A stretch of DNA of 64,000 nt from Polyangium fumosum (GTDB lineage: Bacteria; Myxococcota_A; Polyangia; Polyangiales; Polyangiaceae): NCBI RefSeq assembly GCF_005144585.1, contig NZ_SSMQ01000011.1, positions 124,001-188,000 of the forward strand. The letters run 5' to 3'. Positions 4,819 through 58,039 of this stretch are shown here, piece after piece. The translations under genes were made by a program, and so were the position numbers. The stretch's first letter is position 1. Every line of letters starts with the position of its first letter. The notes under the pieces were generated by a model. The model made no database searches. It had not been told where the DNA came from and was given only the letters and a program-made list of their open reading frames with translations.

Positions 4819-5030
4819 TTCCCCAAGGCACAGCGAACCAGGAGTTGGCCGCTTCTCCGGCGGCTCTGTGAGGAGCTCCCGGCACCCTACGCACTCCGCG
4901 GGCAGCCACTCCGAGCTTCGCCTCCCGCGAACGCTTTTGCCGTGACCTCGCCGTCCCGAACACGGCACCATCGGCGCGCATTCGTTGATCCTCTCGCTCT
5001 TCGCCGATCGGATTCGAGGGAGAAGCCTCA

Positions 5031-5310
5031 CCAGCGAGGCGCTGGACCCAGGGTCGATGAACTGCGCATCGCGCAGTTCATCGAACAGCCATGGTCAAGA
5101 CCAGCGACGACCCTGCCAACGGAGTCCGTGGCGCCGCAGGTTCAACCGGCGACGTTCGCGTCGCCCGGTCGAGATCCTCCTCCACGGTCTTGCCACGGGC
5201 CCGTTGGAAGAACTGCGCATCGCGCAGTTCTTCCACCTTCGGTCCAGGCTGTGCCTGGTCCGGGGTCGAGGGGGCGGACAGCCCCCCGCGGGGTCCGGGG
5301 CAGCGCCCCG
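5031..5310. repeat. Palindromic hairpin-array repeat, copy A (left arm truncated)
   Basis: First member of a dispersed family. The left arm keeps only hairpin H3 (CCAGCG/CGCTGG, 5031-5045) and H4 (5054-5084, 14-bp arms, loop ATC). A core of about 120 bases follows, then a full right arm: H4 (5206-5234), H3 (CCAGGC/GCCTGG), H2 with the TGTCC loop read on the minus strand, and H1 (GGGGC/GCCCC). The right end is 18 bases from the stop of the VOC gene at 5329. The 212 bases between 4819 and 5030 hold nothing I can identify. Confidence 0.85.
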
Positions 5311-5328
5311 GCGCAACGGCCCCACGAT

Positions 5329-9568: not shown

Positions 9569-9673
9569 CACGCGCCGCGCGAACCTAGCAGTTTTTGAGC
9601 AGGGTGCTCCGCCCATGGCGGCGTCCCCCTCGGGACGAGAGCTGCGCATGGGTCGCCTCGTGAAGCCGCCTTG

Positions 9674-9975
9674 CTGGGGCTTTGCCCCAGGCCCCACCAG
9701 GGGTTGTCCACCCCTGGACCCGGACCAGCCAGGGGCTGGACCCAAGCTCGATGACCTGCGCTCCGCGCAGCTCATCGAACAGGCCCGGTCAAGACCGGCG
9801 ACGAGCCTGCCAACCGAGACAGCCGCGCGGCGGGTTCGGCTGGCAACCTGGGTTCTTCGTCGGCCTGTTTGAAAAACTGCGCGGAGCGCAGTTTTTCAAC
9901 CCTGGGTCCAGCGCCTCGCTGGTCCGGGGTCGAGGGGGCGGACAGCCCCCCGCGGGGACCGGGGCAGCGCCCCGG
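9674..9975. repeat. Palindromic hairpin-array repeat, copy B (complete, 302 bp)
   Basis: Complete element. The left arm has H1 (CTGGGGC/GCCCCAG), H2 (CCAGGGGT/ACCCCTGG, loop TGTCC), H3 (CCAGCC/GGCTGG) and H4; then a core of about 90 bases, and a mirror-image right arm (H4 with AAAAACTGCGC stems, H3 CCAGCG/CGCTGG, H2, H1 CCGGGGC/GCCCCGG). It fills most of the 429-base gap between genes at 9568 and 9998. The right H1 lies 22 bases past the stop of the gene at 9998, and the left end is 105 bases upstream of the phosphatase start. Confidence 0.9.
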
Positions 9976-9997
9976 CGCGGCGCTTCATGCTCAGGGA

Positions 9998-10387
9998 CTA
10001 AAGCGCGCGGGTGAGGATCTTGGCGATGTCGAGATCCGTGATGCAGCCGTCGGAGCCTTTGGCGAACACACACGCGAGGGTGACGACGCCGTCCTTCAGG
10101 CCGACGGAGGGGGCGCCCTCCTTCAGGTTCGTGACGACGATGCGCTTGACGCCCTCGCGGACGGCCTCCTTGCCGAGCTCGTCGACGCAGATGACGCGGA
10201 AGGCGTTGGCGAGCTTGCGGACGCCGAGGTGCTGGACGTTCTTCAGCGCGGCCTCGTCGGTCTCGAAGGTCGCCCAGTCGACGTCCACGACGACGGGGGC
10301 GCCGACCTCCTTCTGGATGTCTTTTTGCTCGTCCGGAAGCCAGGACTCCTTCGCTTCCTTGATGAGCCGCTTCTCGATGAGTCCCAT
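9998..10387 (-). CDS. Uncharacterised 129-residue cytoplasmic protein
   Basis: No family recognised. A small soluble protein with a charged N-terminal helix (MGLIEKRLIKEAKESWLPDEQKDIQKEVG), then an alternating strand/helix pattern including VVVDVDWATF, VRKLANAFRVICVDELGKEAVREGVKRIVVTN, and a Val-rich VVTLACVF strand. No signal or membrane segment is present. The ATG at 10387 has GGAGGCGG at about six bases, a strong ribosome site. It is divergent from the small gene at 10515, and repeat copy B begins 22 bases after its stop. The conserved look of the core suggests a real, probably lineage-restricted gene. Confidence 0.8.
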   Translation of the reverse strand: MGLIEKRLIKEAKESWLPDEQKDIQKEVGAPVVVDVDWATFETDEAALKNVQHLGVRKLANAFRVICVDELGKEAVREGVKRIVVTNLKEGAPSVGLKDGVVTLACVFAKGSDGCITDLDIAKILTRAL

Positions 10388-10514
10388 GGAAACCGCCTCC
10401 GTTCGAACGCGTGACGATCACGCCGGGGGCGGAGCATACAGGAACGGGATCTCGCCGGAAAGTGGACCCCAGCGCGGCGAACGGGCGACCATTTCCCGCG
10501 AAGGAGGTTCTCTC

Positions 10515-10931
10515 TTGTCGAGGATGGATCCCATCGAGGCCCCGCCGCCGTCGCTCGGAGCCGAGCGCCGCAGGCGGAGGAGCGAAGACCCGATCACGGC
10601 GCTGCACTACCAGCTCTCCGTCGCGCGCAGCGAAGGGAAGCTCGAGGCCCTCGTGCTCGTCGACGACCGGGGCTGCCTCGTCGCAGGCGCCGGCTCGTGG
10701 CCCGTCTGCGAGGAGCTCGCCGCCTACGCGCCGCTGCTCGCCGAGCCCGACCTGCCCACGTCCGCAGCCGTGGGCACGCGGATCGCCGATCTCTCGCGAG
10801 AAGTCCTCGTGCGCGCGCTCCCCCTCGGCACGGCCGAGGCGCTGCTCGCGGTGCGCGGCGGGGGCGACGACCGGTCGGCCTTTGTCGCCCGCGCGGCCGC
10901 GGGGTGCCGGCGGATCTTGCGGGCGGCTTGA
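10515..10931 (+). CDS. Small protein, possibly roadblock/LC7-like
   Basis: A 138-residue protein. I prefer a TTG start at 10515 because AAGGAGG lies at 10501-10507, an ideal seven-base spacing; the ATG at 10524 would sit 16 bases away. After a charged leader (GAERRRRRSEDP), the sequence shows a helix, then LEALVLVDDRGCLVAGAG and later a VLVRALPLGTAEALLAVRGG strand pair. This helix-strand-helix pattern with a 'VDDRG..VA' turn resembles roadblock/LC7 proteins that act on small GTPases such as MglA, but the match is weak. Repeat copy C starts 23 bases past its stop. Confidence 0.72.
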   Translation: MSRMDPIEAPPPSLGAERRRRRSEDPITALHYQLSVARSEGKLEALVLVDDRGCLVAGAGSWPVCEELAAYAPLLAEPDLPTSAAVGTRIADLSREVLVRALPLGTAEALLAVRGGGDDRSAFVARAAAGCRRILRAA

Positions 10932-10953
10932 GAGAGCGTGTCGCAGCGTCGCC

Positions 10954-11255
10954 CCGGGGCGCTGCCCCGGACCCCGCGGGGGGCTGTCCGCCCCCTCGAC
11001 CCCGGACCAGGCACAGCCTGGACCGAGGGTTGAAAAACTGCGCGGTGCGCAGTTTTTCAACCGGGCCGACGAAGAAGCCGGGGTGCCAGCAGAACCCGCA
11101 GCGCGGCGGTCTCGGTTGGCAACGCCGCTGCTGGTCTTGACCGGGCCTGTTCGATGAGCTGCGCGGAGCGCAGGTCATCGATCCTGGGTCCAGCGCCTCG
11201 CTGGTCCGGGTGCAGGGGCGGACAGCCCCTGCTGGGGCCTGGGGCAAAGCCCCAG
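10954..11255. repeat. Palindromic hairpin-array repeat, copy C (complete, 302 bp)
   Basis: Same length from H1 to H1 as copies B and F, but the central core is inverted relative to them (it reads as the reverse complement of the copy B core). Left arm: H1 CCGGGGC/GCCCCGG, H2 loop TGTCC, H3 CCAGGC/GCCTGG, H4 with AAAAACTGCGC stems. Right arm: H4, H3 CCAGCG/CGCTGG, H2 with a GCAGGGGC/GCCCCTGC stem, and H1 CTGGGGC/GCCCCAG. It occupies the gap between genes ending at 10931 and starting at 11374. Confidence 0.9.
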
Positions 11256-11373
11256 CAAGGCGGCTTCACGAGGAGACCCCATGCGCAGGCGCATGGCGAG
11301 GGGCACGCTCCGCGGGCAGTCCGAGCGCTTTCCCTCATCCCCGAAACGCGCGAGCCGTGCTAAAGGGCGCCCC

Positions 11374-13400: not shown

Positions 13401-13414
13401 TGGCAGGCGTCGCG

Positions 13415-13530
13415 CTGGGGCGTTGCCCCAGGCCCCAGGAGGGGGCTGTCCGCCCCCTCCACCCCGGACCAGCGAGGCGCTGGACCCGGGGTCGATGAAC
13501 TGCGCGTTGCGCAGTTCATCGAACGGCCGT
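13415..13530. repeat. Palindromic hairpin-array repeat, copy D (one arm plus decayed core)
   Basis: Left arm only: H1 CTGGGGC/GCCCCAG (13415-13431), H2 with stem GGAGGGGGC/GCCCCCTCC and TGTCC loop, H3 CCAGCG/CGCTGG, H4 13492-13522 (14-bp arms, loop GTT). The following 40 bases still align loosely with the core of copy B (GTTGACAAGGTAGGCGAGG), after which similarity is lost and no right arm is found. Confidence 0.85.
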
Positions 13531-14057
13531 TGACAAGGTAGGCGAGGCGTCTGCCGACCAAGGCGGCGGCGTGGACGAGTGCCCGTGGGAGAGCACGAGC
13601 GCCGCGAGGGGCCGGAACCCGTTCGTGCCCCCCGCGTCGTTGCCCCTCAGGCATCTCGACAGGCAACATCAGCCCTCGTCCTCGTGTGTTCGGTGCCGTG
13701 ACAAGCGAGCGTGCTTGCCGCAGGGCATCGGGCACGAAGCCAAGCAAGGCGTGTCCGCGCGGCAGAGGAGGTGTCTCGCCGCCGGACACGTGGTGAAGCG
13801 TGCGTCCAGGGGAAGGTCGACCCTCGAGACAAGGTCTCGACGCAGCCGACGTTCCTCGTCTCGCCGCCGAACACGGTCCGTCCGCCGTCGACGGAGCGTG
13901 TCGCGGGGGCTCACAGGTCGGCGCCCAGGCCAACGTCAGGCGGCCGGCCGCGTCCCTCGGTCTGTCGCCCAGCGGAGGCTCCTGTGGCGCCGCCGAACAC
14001 GCGTCGTCGACAGCGGAGGTCACGTGTTTGGGGGGATGCCGCGCTGGGGGCGTCGCG
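13531..14057. other. Gene-less spacer between repeat copies D and E
   Basis: About 525 bases with no credible gene. Long open frames exist on both strands but are Arg/Pro-rich and run straight into the flanking repeats. A short motif, GCCGCCGAACACG with variants, occurs near 13780, 13862 and 13994, with an inverted relative near 13686, so the segment may itself be degenerate repeat or remnant DNA. No terminator or RNA gene is evident. Confidence 0.5.
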
Positions 14058-14385
14058 CCGGGGCGCTGCCCCGGACCCCGCGGGGGCTGTCCGCCCCTCG
14101 ACCCGGACCAGGCACGGCCTGGACCGAGGGGGGAAGAACTGCGCAACGCGCAGTTCTTCCCACGGGCCCGTGGCAAGACCATGGAGGTGGGTCTCAAGCT
14201 GGCGACGGGAGCGCTGCCCGTTGAACCCGCAGCGCCGCTGTCTTGGTTGGCAGGGTCGTGGAGGGTCTTGACCCCGGCTGTTCGAGGAACTGCGCGGAGC
14301 GCAGTTCCTCGACCCCGGTCCAGGCCGTGCCTGGTCCGGGTCCAGGGGTGGACACCCCCTGGTGGGGCCTGGGGCAACGCCCCAG
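14058..14385. repeat. Palindromic hairpin-array repeat, copy E (complete, 328 bp)
   Basis: Both arms are complete: left H1 CCGGGGC/GCCCCGG, H2, H3 CCAGGC/GCCTGG, H4 loop AAC; right H4 loop GGA, H3 CCAGGC/GCCTGG, H2 with a CCAGGGG/CCCCTGG stem around TGTCC (minus strand), H1 CTGGGGC/GCCCCAG. The core is longer than in the 302-bp copies and lies in the reverse orientation, matching the core type of copy A. The right end is 15 bases from the stop of the lipoprotein at 14400. Confidence 0.88.
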
Positions 14386-14399
14386 CTCCGCGCCCCCAG

Positions 14400-21514: not shown

Positions 21515-23268
21515 CTGCTTCAGCTCCGTCCTCTCCACGCTCGGGGGCTCCGCTCGACGAGCGAGCTGCGCCCCCGAACCCCCCCCGCAGGCTCCCCGTC
21601 CTCGCCGCAGGCGCTGTCGAGACGTCCTTCGCCGACTTCCAGAACGAGGCGTTGCTCGGCGACGCGGAGGGCGGGGAGAAGACGCTCGCGCACGAGGCCG
21701 CCGCGCACGAAAAACGCAACTGGGTGCGCCTGTCCTACGATTGCAACAACCACTGCACGTTTTGCCTCGATTCGAATGCGCACGACGGCACGATGCGGGC
21801 GACGCAGGACATCAAGGTGCAGATCGTCGAGGGCCGGCGGCGCGGCGCCGATCGGCTGATCCTCTCGGGCGGCGAGCCGACGATGCACCCGAACTTCCTC
21901 GACTTCGTGAAGCTCGGGCGCCTCGCCGGCTACCGGAAGATCCAGACCGTGACGAACGGTCGCATGTTCCGTTACCCGGAGTTCCTCAACAAGGCCGCGG
22001 ACAACGGCTTGCACGAGATCACGTTCTCGCTGCACGGCCACACGGCGAAGCTACACGACGCGCTCGTCGGCACGCCCGGCGCGTTCGTGGAGGAGGTCGC
22101 GGGACTCAAGGCGGCGCTGGCGTCGCAGAGGTTCATCGTCAACGTCGACATCGTCATCAACAAGCAAAACGTCCGGCACCTGCCGGCGATGCTGGAGATG
22201 TTCATCGGCTGGGGCGTGAAGGAGTTCGACCTGCTGCACGTGATCCCCTTCGGCAACGCGTGGAGCGACGCGCGGCACCACCTGTTCTACGATCTCGACG
22301 GCAACCTCGAATACCTGCAGCAGGCCTTCGCGTACGCGCGGAGGCCCGACATCCACATCTGGCTGAACCGCTTCCCGCCGCCCTACGCCGAGGGTTTTGA
22401 GGATCTGATCCAGGATCCTTATAAATTGAACGATGAAGTTCGCGGTCGGCGCGAGGAGTACGATCGGTACCTCTCGCTCGGCAAGAAGCTCATGTGTCGC
22501 GAGCCCGAGCGGTGCAAGTACTGCTACCTGGAGAGCCTCTGCGACACGCTCGACGAGGTGATCGACGTGCGCAAGGCCGAGGAGGTGGACGTGCTCCGCT
22601 ACGCCGGCGAGCCGCCCCTCGCGGGCAAGCTGCCGGAAGCACACGCAGCGCGGATCGTGGCGGCGAACCTGGAGGAGGCCGCGGCGCTCGCAGCGAAGGC
22701 GACGCCGGGCGCGATCGAGCTCGAGCTCGCGTCCTACGAGGGGTTGTCCGAGGCGCTCTCCCCCGAAGGTCTGCTCTTCGGCAAGAAGCTCGTGGCCTGT
22801 TACACGGGTGATCCCGCCGCAATCGAGCCCCTGCTCGGAATCCCCCGGTCCTTCGAGGTCCGCACCTTCCTCACGAAGGCAACGGAGCCCGTGATCCGCA
22901 GGCTGGATCCCCCGCCGGAAAACCTCGTGCTCGTGCAGCAAAACTACGACCTCGTGTCGGACGCCCACGCAAACGACGTCGACACGAAATCGTTTTTCGC
23001 GGCGTACCCCCATCCCGTCCCCGTGGAGAACGTACCCGCCTGCGTGGCAGGAAGGCCCGTGCGGCCCGCCGCGCGGACGCTGGACCTCGCGATGCTCGGC
23101 ACCGACGCGCGCATCGACATGACAGCGTTCACGAAGCGCTACGTGGCCGACGGGTTCTACACGAAGGCACTCCGCTGCAAGGACTGCCGCGAGAACACCT
23201 CCTGCCGTGGCGTGCACGTGAACTGGGTTCGCGCCCACGGCTTCGGGGCGCTGGCGCCCATCGGCTAG
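21511..23268 (+). CDS. Second radical-SAM protein with C-terminal auxiliary-cluster cysteines
   Basis: A 585-residue protein starting at a GTG inside the GTGA overlap with the upstream gene, implying coupled translation. The first 65 residues are a Pro/Ala-rich leader interrupted by a palindrome-encoded segment. The core shows C-x3-C-x2-C (Cys78, Cys82, Cys85), LILSGGEPTMHP and TVTNG, then a partial TIM barrel through about residue 300. Cysteines in CREPERCKYCYLESLC and, near the end, CKDCRENTSC suggest auxiliary Fe-S clusters of SPASM type. With its neighbour it makes a two-enzyme maturation set; no obvious precursor peptide gene is seen. Repeat copy F starts eight bases after the stop. Confidence 0.92.
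   Translation: MTASAPSSPRSGAPLDERAAPPNPPRRLPVLAAGAVETSFADFQNEALLGDAEGGEKTLAHEAAAHEKRNWVRLSYDCNNHCTFCLDSNAHDGTMRATQDIKVQIVEGRRRGADRLILSGGEPTMHPNFLDFVKLGRLAGYRKIQTVTNGRMFRYPEFLNKAADNGLHEITFSLHGHTAKLHDALVGTPGAFVEEVAGLKAALASQRFIVNVDIVINKQNVRHLPAMLEMFIGWGVKEFDLLHVIPFGNAWSDARHHLFYDLDGNLEYLQQAFAYARRPDIHIWLNRFPPPYAEGFEDLIQDPYKLNDEVRGRREEYDRYLSLGKKLMCREPERCKYCYLESLCDTLDEVIDVRKAEEVDVLRYAGEPPLAGKLPEAHAARIVAANLEEAAALAAKATPGAIELELASYEGLSEALSPEGLLFGKKLVACYTGDPAAIEPLLGIPRSFEVRTFLTKATEPVIRRLDPPPENLVLVQQNYDLVSDAHANDVDTKSFFAAYPHPVPVENVPACVAGRPVRPAARTLDLAMLGTDARIDMTAFTKRYVADGFYTKALRCKDCRENTSCRGVHVNWVRAHGFGALAPIG
21543..21583 (+). repeat. In-frame palindrome inside the second radical-SAM gene
   Basis: GGGGGC, CGCTCG, CGAGCG and GCCCCC in order, followed by GAACCCCC. 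It resembles the unit at 18576-18616 in layout and reading frame. It encodes part of the non-conserved N-terminal leader, so insertion here would be tolerated. Confidence 0.45.
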
Positions 23269-23275
23269 CGTTGCG

Positions 23276-23577
23276 CTGGGGCTTTGCCCCAGGCCCCACC
23301 AGGGGTTGTCCACCCCTGGACCCGGACCAGCCAGGGGCTGGACCCAGGCTCGATGACCTGCGCTCCGCGCAGCTCATCGAACAGGCCCGGTCAAGACCAG
23401 CAACGACCCTGCCCACCAAGACCGCCGCGCGGCTGGTTCGGCTGGCACCCTGGGTTCTTCGTCGGCCTGTTTGAAAAACTGCGCACCGCGCAGTTTTTCA
23501 ACCCTGGGTCCAGCCCCTGGCTGGTCCGGGGTCGAGGGGGCGGACAGCCCCCCGCGGGGTCCGGGGCAGCGCCCCGG
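23276..23577. repeat. Palindromic hairpin-array repeat, copy F (complete, 302 bp)
   Basis: Near-identical in arms and core orientation to copy B. It fills a convergent gap: the left H1 starts 8 bases after the stop at 23268 and the right H1 ends 13 bases before the opposing stop at 23590, so the element is almost the entire spacer. H3 is CCAGCC/GGCTGG in both arms, with loops AGG and CCT; H4 is mirror-placed as in copy B. Confidence 0.92.
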
Positions 23578-23589
23578 CGCGGGGTGGCG

Positions 23590-24315
23590 TCAGGGGACGA
23601 GCGTGCAGCCGGTGAGGACGCCCGCGAGCATCTCGCCGCGGGGCTGGCCTTCCCAGCCGCTTTCCCAGTGGAAGGTGGGGGCCTTGAGCTTGCCTTCCAC
23701 GGTGTACTTGCACTTCACGCTGAAGCGCGTGGTGGGCAGGTTGCCTGCGAGGGCGGGCTCGCTCCAGAGGCCGGCGGCGACGAACTGCACGTTGTCCGTC
23801 GAGGTGTAGGGCCGCAGCGTCTTCTTGTCGTCGGTGGCGTCGCCCTTGCTCCAGGCCTTCGACGGCGACTCGAAGCCGCAGTGCCTGCCTGCGACCTCGT
23901 CTGTCGCGGCGCAGTTGAGCTCGCGTTTGTCGCCGGCCACCAGCGTGATCTCGACGTCCACGGTCTGGCCTGGCTTCCATGCGGGGCCGCGCGGGCCGCC
24001 GCCGCCGCGCTCTTGACCGAGCAGCGCGAAGCCTGCGGCCAGCGTGCCTACGACGACCACGAAGAGCACCATGCTCTTGCCGAGGGATGCCGAGCTCGGC
24101 GGCGGTGCGCGCCTTGGCGCGGCTTTGCCGGCCTTGGGCTGCTTCTTCGCGGGCGCCTTTGCGGGCGCGGCTTTTGCGGCGGCAGGGGGGGCCTTTGCTT
24201 CGGCTTTTGCCTCGGCCTTCGGAGCCTCTGCTTGGGCTTCGGCTTCGGGCTCGTCGTGGCCCTCGTCCTCGGCTCCGCCTTCGTCCTTGTCCTCGTCCGG
24301 TTCTTTCTCGGCCAT
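23590..24315 (-). CDS. Single-pass membrane protein with Ala/Lys/Glu-rich cytoplasmic tail
   Basis: A 241-residue protein. Residues 1-75 are a disordered Glu/Ala/Lys/Pro-rich tail, followed by one transmembrane helix (SMVLFVVVVGTLAAGFALLG, about 80-100) and an exported C-terminal domain of about 140 residues. That domain contains VDVEITLVAGDKRELNCA and several cysteines (C-x-F, KCKY, GCTL), which look like an extracytoplasmic beta domain with disulfides. The topology (N-in, C-out) follows from the single helix and the basic residues before it. No family is recognised. It is convergent with the radical-SAM genes and divergent from the KAS III-like gene at 24377. Confidence 0.82.
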   Translation of the reverse strand: MAEKEPDEDKDEGGAEDEGHDEPEAEAQAEAPKAEAKAEAKAPPAAAKAAPAKAPAKKQPKAGKAAPRRAPPPSSASLGKSMVLFVVVVGTLAAGFALLGQERGGGGPRGPAWKPGQTVDVEITLVAGDKRELNCAATDEVAGRHCGFESPSKAWSKGDATDDKKTLRPYTSTDNVQFVAAGLWSEPALAGNLPTTRFSVKCKYTVEGKLKAPTFHWESGWEGQPRGEMLAGVLTGCTLVP

Positions 24316-57896: not shown

Positions 57897-57936
57897 GCCG
57901 TCAGGGTTTGTCAGAGGGGACTGGCACAGCGTGGCG

Positions 57937-58039
57937 CCGGGGTTTCACCCCGGACCCGACGAGGGGCTGTCCGCCCCTCGACCCGGACCAGGGCACGGCC
58001 CTGGACCGCACATGCATCGACCGCGATGCGGTCGATGCA
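57937..58039. repeat. Palindromic hairpin-array repeat, copy G (solo arm, divergent stems)
   Basis: One arm only, in a convergent gap. H1 is CCGGGGT/ACCCCGG (loop TTC), H2 CGAGGGGC/GCCCCTCG with the TGTCC loop at 57960-57980, H3 CCAGGGC/GCCCTGG (loop ACG), and H4 58013-58039, whose 12-bp stem TGCATCGACCGC/GCGGTCGATGCA is unrelated in sequence to every other copy yet keeps the position and three-base loop. No core or right arm follows; the next stop is at 58073. Confidence 0.85.

Follow-up and report, generated by a model that had tools for sequence, protein, structure and literature searches.

REPINs, BIMEs and REP doublets are high-copy pairs of inverted palindromes that lie between genes with fixed spacing. 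They are placed 3' of genes or between convergent genes and show compensated changes in their stems (PMC3116915, PMC3733652), all of which also holds for the repeat studied here. Bacterial MITEs (QMITE, RUP, BOX, SPRITE) share other features with it, i.e., they are short, non-autonomous and intergenic, combine terminal inverted repeats (TIRs) with a target duplication, and are known for predicted structured transcripts and nested insertions (PMC10969869). The study of IS targets in REP sequences by Tobes and Pareja (PMC1525189) offers a further parallel, since several copies of our repeat sit inside other palindromic repeats. Finally, the mobile or repeat candidates of ncRNA screens (PMC11109978) are likewise multi-copy structured motifs without fixed orientation to genes; the text of that paper names neither Polyangium nor Sorangium. 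We found no description of the Polyangium repeat in the open-licence papers searched. Rfam provided no gathering-score match within the window (the whole stretch of 64,000 nt analysed here), and a relaxed threshold gave only weak unrelated hits.

Positions 9650-9984 and 10945-11279 of the window are two copies of one element, 89% alike and in inverted orientation, which flank two unrelated genes. The element is about 310 bp long and near-palindromic: two arms are inverted about a variable centre, and each arm reads H1-H2-H3-H4 in terms of its hairpins. The first copy, as a full element without assigned strand, covers 9642-9984 including a decayed left TIR (CTGCGCATGGGTCGCCTC). Its neighbours are a minus-strand gene ending at 9998 and a minus-strand gene starting at about 9568. 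The left arm (plus strand) comprises H1 (9675-9689), the H2 core stem-loop (9700-9714, loop TGTCC at 9705-9709), a GGA (9722-9724) marked by loop-flank covariation as the putative pseudoknot partner of the H2 loop, H3 (CCAGCC-AGG-GGCTGG, 9725-9739), and H4 (TCGATGACCTGCGC-TCC-GCGCAGCTCATCGA, 9748-9778, with one C.C mismatch and a perfect part at 9756-9770). The right arm (minus strand) holds H4 with a TTGAAAAACTGCGC stem (9869-9899), H3 (9908-9922), the GGA partner (9923-9925), H2 (9935-9949, loop 9940-9944), and H1 (9960-9974). None of five congeners has a full element at this site.

The second copy covers 10945-11289 with a decayed right TIR and lies between two plus-strand genes, the left of which ends at 10931. 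Here, the left arm (plus strand) is composed of H1 (10955-10969), H2 (10980-10994, loop TGTCC at 10985-10989), the putative GGA partner (11004-11006), H3 (11007-11021), and H4 (11028-11062), while the right arm (minus strand) contains H4 (11151-11181, one mismatch, perfect part 11159-11173), H3 (11190-11204), GGA (11205-11207), H2 (11215-11229, loop 11220-11224), and H1 (11240-11254). The site is empty in the genomes G001 and G003. G004 instead holds another insertion there, some 2.4 kb in length (L127:9388-11830), with the end of the target gene partly repeated on both sides. Two additional full copies, both between convergent genes, are located at 14050-14393 and 23268-23590; the site of the latter is also filled in G005 and G002, and the copy is absent from G001, G003 and G004. 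A further copy (5030-5318) has a complete right arm and a truncated left arm that begins at H3. Single plus-strand arms are present at 13405-13522 (H1 from 13416, H2 from 13442, GGA from 13466, H3 from 13469, H4 from 13492) and at 57929-58039, the latter with a differing H4 (GCATCGACCGC stem).

The earlier note on this DNA had described an invariant TGTCC loop in H2 on top of stems that vary with pairing retained. Within the window, this description is accurate: all 11 readable H2 hairpins show TGTCC, the stem variants CCAGGGGT/ACCCCTGG, GCAGGGGC/GCCCCTGC, GGAGGGGGC/GCCCCCTCC, CGAGGGGC/GCCCCTCG and GGGGGC/GCCCCC are present with pairing kept, and the H3 variants as well as the C-G/T-A swaps of H1 can be verified. 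One of the 11 hairpins (14345-14359, right arm of the copy at 14050-14393) has a broken closing pair (G.A), which had gone unmentioned. The invariance of the loop is lost with wider sampling. When arms are collected by profile sampling over 2.03 Mb without demanding TGTCC, only 134/172 arms carry it, next to TATCC (16), TGTTC (14), TCTCC (3), TCTTC (3) and TATTC (2); a rarer loop type, TACGC, exists outside these six. That is, the uniform picture in the window results from its small sample. The loop consensus of the family is T-N-T-Y-C plus the rarer TACGC, with a constant length of 5 and unchanging bases 1 (T) and 5 (C). Within the whole genome (12.98 Mb in 201 contigs), we counted 338 occurrences of the core GGGGNTGTCCNCCCC compared to 0 and 1 for the reversed control, i.e., more than expected by chance.

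Loop bases 3-5 of H2 are complementary to the GGA immediately 5' of H3 (CCAG...CTGG), and in arms with loop TTC the downstream GGACC is replaced by GAACC. Summed over the six Polyangium genomes, we counted at least 1270 exact matches of TGTCC/GGACC, while a genus-wide pattern search yielded 407 exact matches of TTC/GAACC and only 3 mismatched arms (TTC/GGACC 2, TCC/GAACC 1). For the loop CGC with unconstrained flank, 16 matches in four genomes were obtained, and 16/16 show GCG in the flank. The loop-flank helix thus occurs in three covarying states, from which 3 out of about 1700 arms in six genomes depart. Among 99 non-redundant arms, it is paired in 100% of the cells with 17 both-side changes. 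Based on a tree built without the loop and flank columns, we infer about 20 joint changes of both sites, 6 of which fall on supported branches (p=0.03), and no change of one site alone. Orthologous insertions (L169 vs. L230) differ by one such double change of a pseudoknot pair. Recombination can move linked sites together, such that linkage could contribute to this pattern. Loop base 2, two bases off, speaks against linkage as the sole cause since it varies freely: G, A and C are each seen with both TCC and TTC, i.e., bases 2 and 4 are not linked. The potential partner of base 2 is already engaged in H3.

Given this, TGTCC seems to be conserved mainly through base pairing with the nearby flank. 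We describe the arm as a covarying four-hairpin fold with a predicted H2-loop pseudoknot, the pairing of which rests on covariation. Once single-stranded, each arm would form four near-perfect hairpins, and the H2 loop together with GGA would form a small pseudoknot of the H-type, for which stacking on H3 is probable. A kissing interaction of the H2 loops from paired arms was considered and rejected, as an element in G005 mixes a TGTCC/GGA arm with a TGTTC/GAA arm; the pairing therefore lies within one arm. The same data bear on the suggestion of the earlier note that the H2 loop is recognised by a base-specific protein, with the stem as a mere scaffold. The constant bases 1 and 5 and the constant loop length agree with such a reader, but bases 2, 3 and 4 vary, and 3 and 4 change only with their flank partner. 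As the main cause of TGTCC conservation, a protein reader thus conflicts with a free base 2 (G/A/C) and with bases 3-5 that follow the flank, and we regard it as improbable. A TGTCC-reading protein is unnecessary for explaining the loop, while the invariant first T could be a contact.

With regard to architecture, 203 arms form 81 inverted pairs. The start-to-start spacing of their H2 hairpins is 219-266 bp for 71/81 pairs with a mode of 235 bp (33 pairs). Intact copies carry the 18-bp TIR CTGAGCATGGGTCTCATC at both ends and are mostly 355-392 bp long. Many copies keep one or both TIRs, and in 59/81 arm pairs the TIR is unrecognisable at either end. About half of the intact copies are flanked by target duplications of 9 bp, which are exact at L192 (CCGGCCAGG) and L229 (CTCACCGCT), contain one mismatch at L166 and L227, and can be read as 10 bp at L026 (CCCTCGCGGG) and L069 (CCCGCGCGGG); among the intact copies examined, those at L005, L209, L215 and L221 show no duplication. 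Corresponding sites in congeners are empty or differently filled, e.g., 7 sites are filled and 4 are without arms when comparing G000 with G004. In view of the TIRs, the 9-bp duplications and the empty congener sites, the element is mobile.

The combination of TIR and 9-bp duplication suggests that a DDE-type transposase probably moves the element in trans, which would make it a non-autonomous one. When TIRs were searched across the genus, none of the copies found carried a transposase of its own. L221 was rejected as an autonomous partner: this 3.5-kb copy of Polyangium sp. y55x31 (L221:4259-7797) is interrupted by a segment encoding an IS1-like transposase (PF03400), i.e., the transposase ORF belongs to an insertion inside the element. 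In the ORF translations of long copies (665-936 bp), no transposase was recognised by eye. Long versions from two species (L158:5154-5908, L190:5488-6367, L180:9637-10302) have an internal segment rich in tandem repeats in common. Nested copies (L192:1501-2511, L026:1477-1843, L231:5980-7420, L158:5100-5970) have inserted into other palindromes, among which are arms of older copies as well as CCCCTCTCC...GGAGAGGGG hairpins.

Exact loop-plus-partner motifs are found in all six Polyangium genomes (50-321 per genome) and in 0/102 other Polyangiaceae genomes; the element is Polyangium-specific. The same 18-bp ends enclose unrelated palindromic interiors in other Myxococcota MAGs (L266:3872-4229, L304:5560-5838, L301:6495-6839), with 9-bp duplications TTACGGTCG and TGACGGTCG at L266 and L304, and the end sequence seems to predate the Polyangium arms and to be more widespread than these. 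Many contigs of G000 (among them C14, C15, C20, C21, C32, C40, C66 and C73) start about 70-170 bp into an arm. The draft assembly is therefore interrupted at these repeats, which may in truth be more numerous than counted.

Next, we related the element to its neighbouring genes as predicted by a codon-based gene caller for 2.03 Mb. From 112 clusters with assignable neighbours, 58 are located between convergent (52%), 41 between tandem and 13 between divergent genes, while none is found inside a gene. For all gaps, the respective numbers are 136, 495 and 208 (Fisher p=2e-15; p=8e-19 by free intergenic length). The median distance to the neighbouring stop codon is 26 nt compared to 269 nt expected at random; for start codons it is 193 nt. 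Purifying removal from genes and promoters covers part of this placement, and the closeness to stop codons exceeds it. Location and hairpins together suggest that the element, tens of bases past the stop codons of chiefly convergent pairs, most likely acts as a 3'-end structure transcribed in two directions, i.e., as a terminator or mRNA-end protector. A consensus terminator scan does not flag H4 since its T-run sits within the stem.

The earlier note had also taken the compensated stems as a mark of selection on a folded single strand. For the whole fold, 99.4% of the cells are paired in the 99 non-redundant arms, with 146 both-side and 0 one-sided changes, compared to 35-62% paired for slid controls; the independent compensations are fewer than such cell counts because copies share ancestry and recombine. 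G-U pairs are nearly absent from the stems. This is odd for RNA, such that ssDNA or a DNA-level homogenisation of the stems are live alternatives. An assignment of the strand via sense/antisense wobble asymmetry (10 vs. 27 distinct mismatches) was too noisy and discarded. Within four orthologous copies of G000 and G004 (a small set with 90-97% identical flanks), 26/576 stem positions differ, 22 of them within 11 compensated pairs, while differences amount to 20/88 for loops and 103/399 for the centre. One of the four pairs resembles a subfamily swap and supplies most changes, while the other three are clean orthologs.

According to the homogenisation scenario, template switching during replication and gene conversion among copies repair the quasi-palindromes without any selection on the folded strand. 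The complete lack of one-sided stem changes agrees with it, as does the free combination of H1-H4 variants among copies. Furthermore, orthologous copies with 91-96% identical flanks show subfamily replacement and, in one case, a wholly inverted interior, which also fit this scenario. In that case (L080:12961 vs. L181:11863), H4-centre-H4 is inverted with H1-H2 and the flanks retained. Since copies recombine and G-U intermediates are almost absent, the stem covariation may indeed partly reflect such a process. On the other hand, the 3-bp loop-flank helix is non-palindromic and too short to serve as a repair template, yet it covaries in three states, and loop base 2 is unlinked at a distance of 2 nt. 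The unpaired spacers between hairpins are conserved too, with 8/150 differences against the 103/399 of the centre in the four ortholog pairs. We thus consider homogenisation as a full explanation rather unlikely. Selection on the folded strand, as claimed, is well supported and strengthened by the three-state covariation, while its original argument from the stems is partly called into question; the selected molecule may be RNA at mRNA 3' ends or else ssDNA. The divergence of TIR-less copies does not significantly exceed that of TIR-bearing ones (p=0.24). The retention of arms while TIRs decay may reflect either selection on the arms or recombination that refreshes TIR-less copies.

Another scenario is a transposon that moves as a single strand (HUH/Y1), like REPINs or IS200/IS605, and whose cleavage is directed by the loop-flank pairing. 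This would account for the REPIN-like paired inverted hairpins, their fixed spacing, the 3'-of-gene location and the perfect Watson-Crick stems (PMC3116915, PMC3733652). We give it very little chance, as Y1_Tnp (PF01797) is absent from G002, G003 and G004 (3/6 Polyangium genomes), the aligned arms show neither the GTAG nor the CGTC tag of REPs and REPINs at the hairpin foot, and TIRs with 9-bp duplications suit a DDE enzyme. RAYT/IS200 was accordingly rejected as mover, given the missing Y1 transposases. Overall, we consider it probable that the arms belong to a Polyangium-specific non-autonomous mobile element with a selected pseudoknotted fold that is spread by recombination and most likely has a 3'-end role. 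That is, selection would keep the fold and repeated recombination between copies would spread it.

The covarying three-state pseudoknot is documented unusually cleanly by about 1700 natural arms from six genomes, and the existing alleles allow for testing the fold. The findings suggest a transposable element that furnishes a genus with structured 3' ends, i.e., a testable route from mobile DNA to gene-expression machinery. They also illustrate that covariation of the kind known from RNA can be imitated or enhanced when copies multiply and recombine. Tentatively, the element might stand for a kind of mobile structured nucleic acid that forms a class of its own and is new: a pseudoknotted module of several hairpins would be scattered behind stop codons throughout the genus by a transposon, work as an interchangeable 3'-end element of mRNAs and outlast the decaying transposon ends.

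Compared to the described systems, the Polyangium arms differ from REPINs in their length of about 110 nt, their four hairpins plus predicted pseudoknot, and the 18-bp TIRs and 9-bp duplications of intact copies. With MITEs, the element shares terminal inverted repeats, a fixed-length duplication and presence/absence polymorphism at orthologous sites. Unlike bacterial MITEs, it is GC-rich instead of AT-rich and its arms are far better kept than its TIRs; for bacterial MITEs, we found no description of a covarying pseudoknot in the open-licence papers searched. In contrast to the insertion sequences that target REP sequences (PMC1525189), the incoming element is itself palindromic and MITE-like. 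We therefore file the element as a novel variant of MITE/REPIN-like palindromic mobile DNA.
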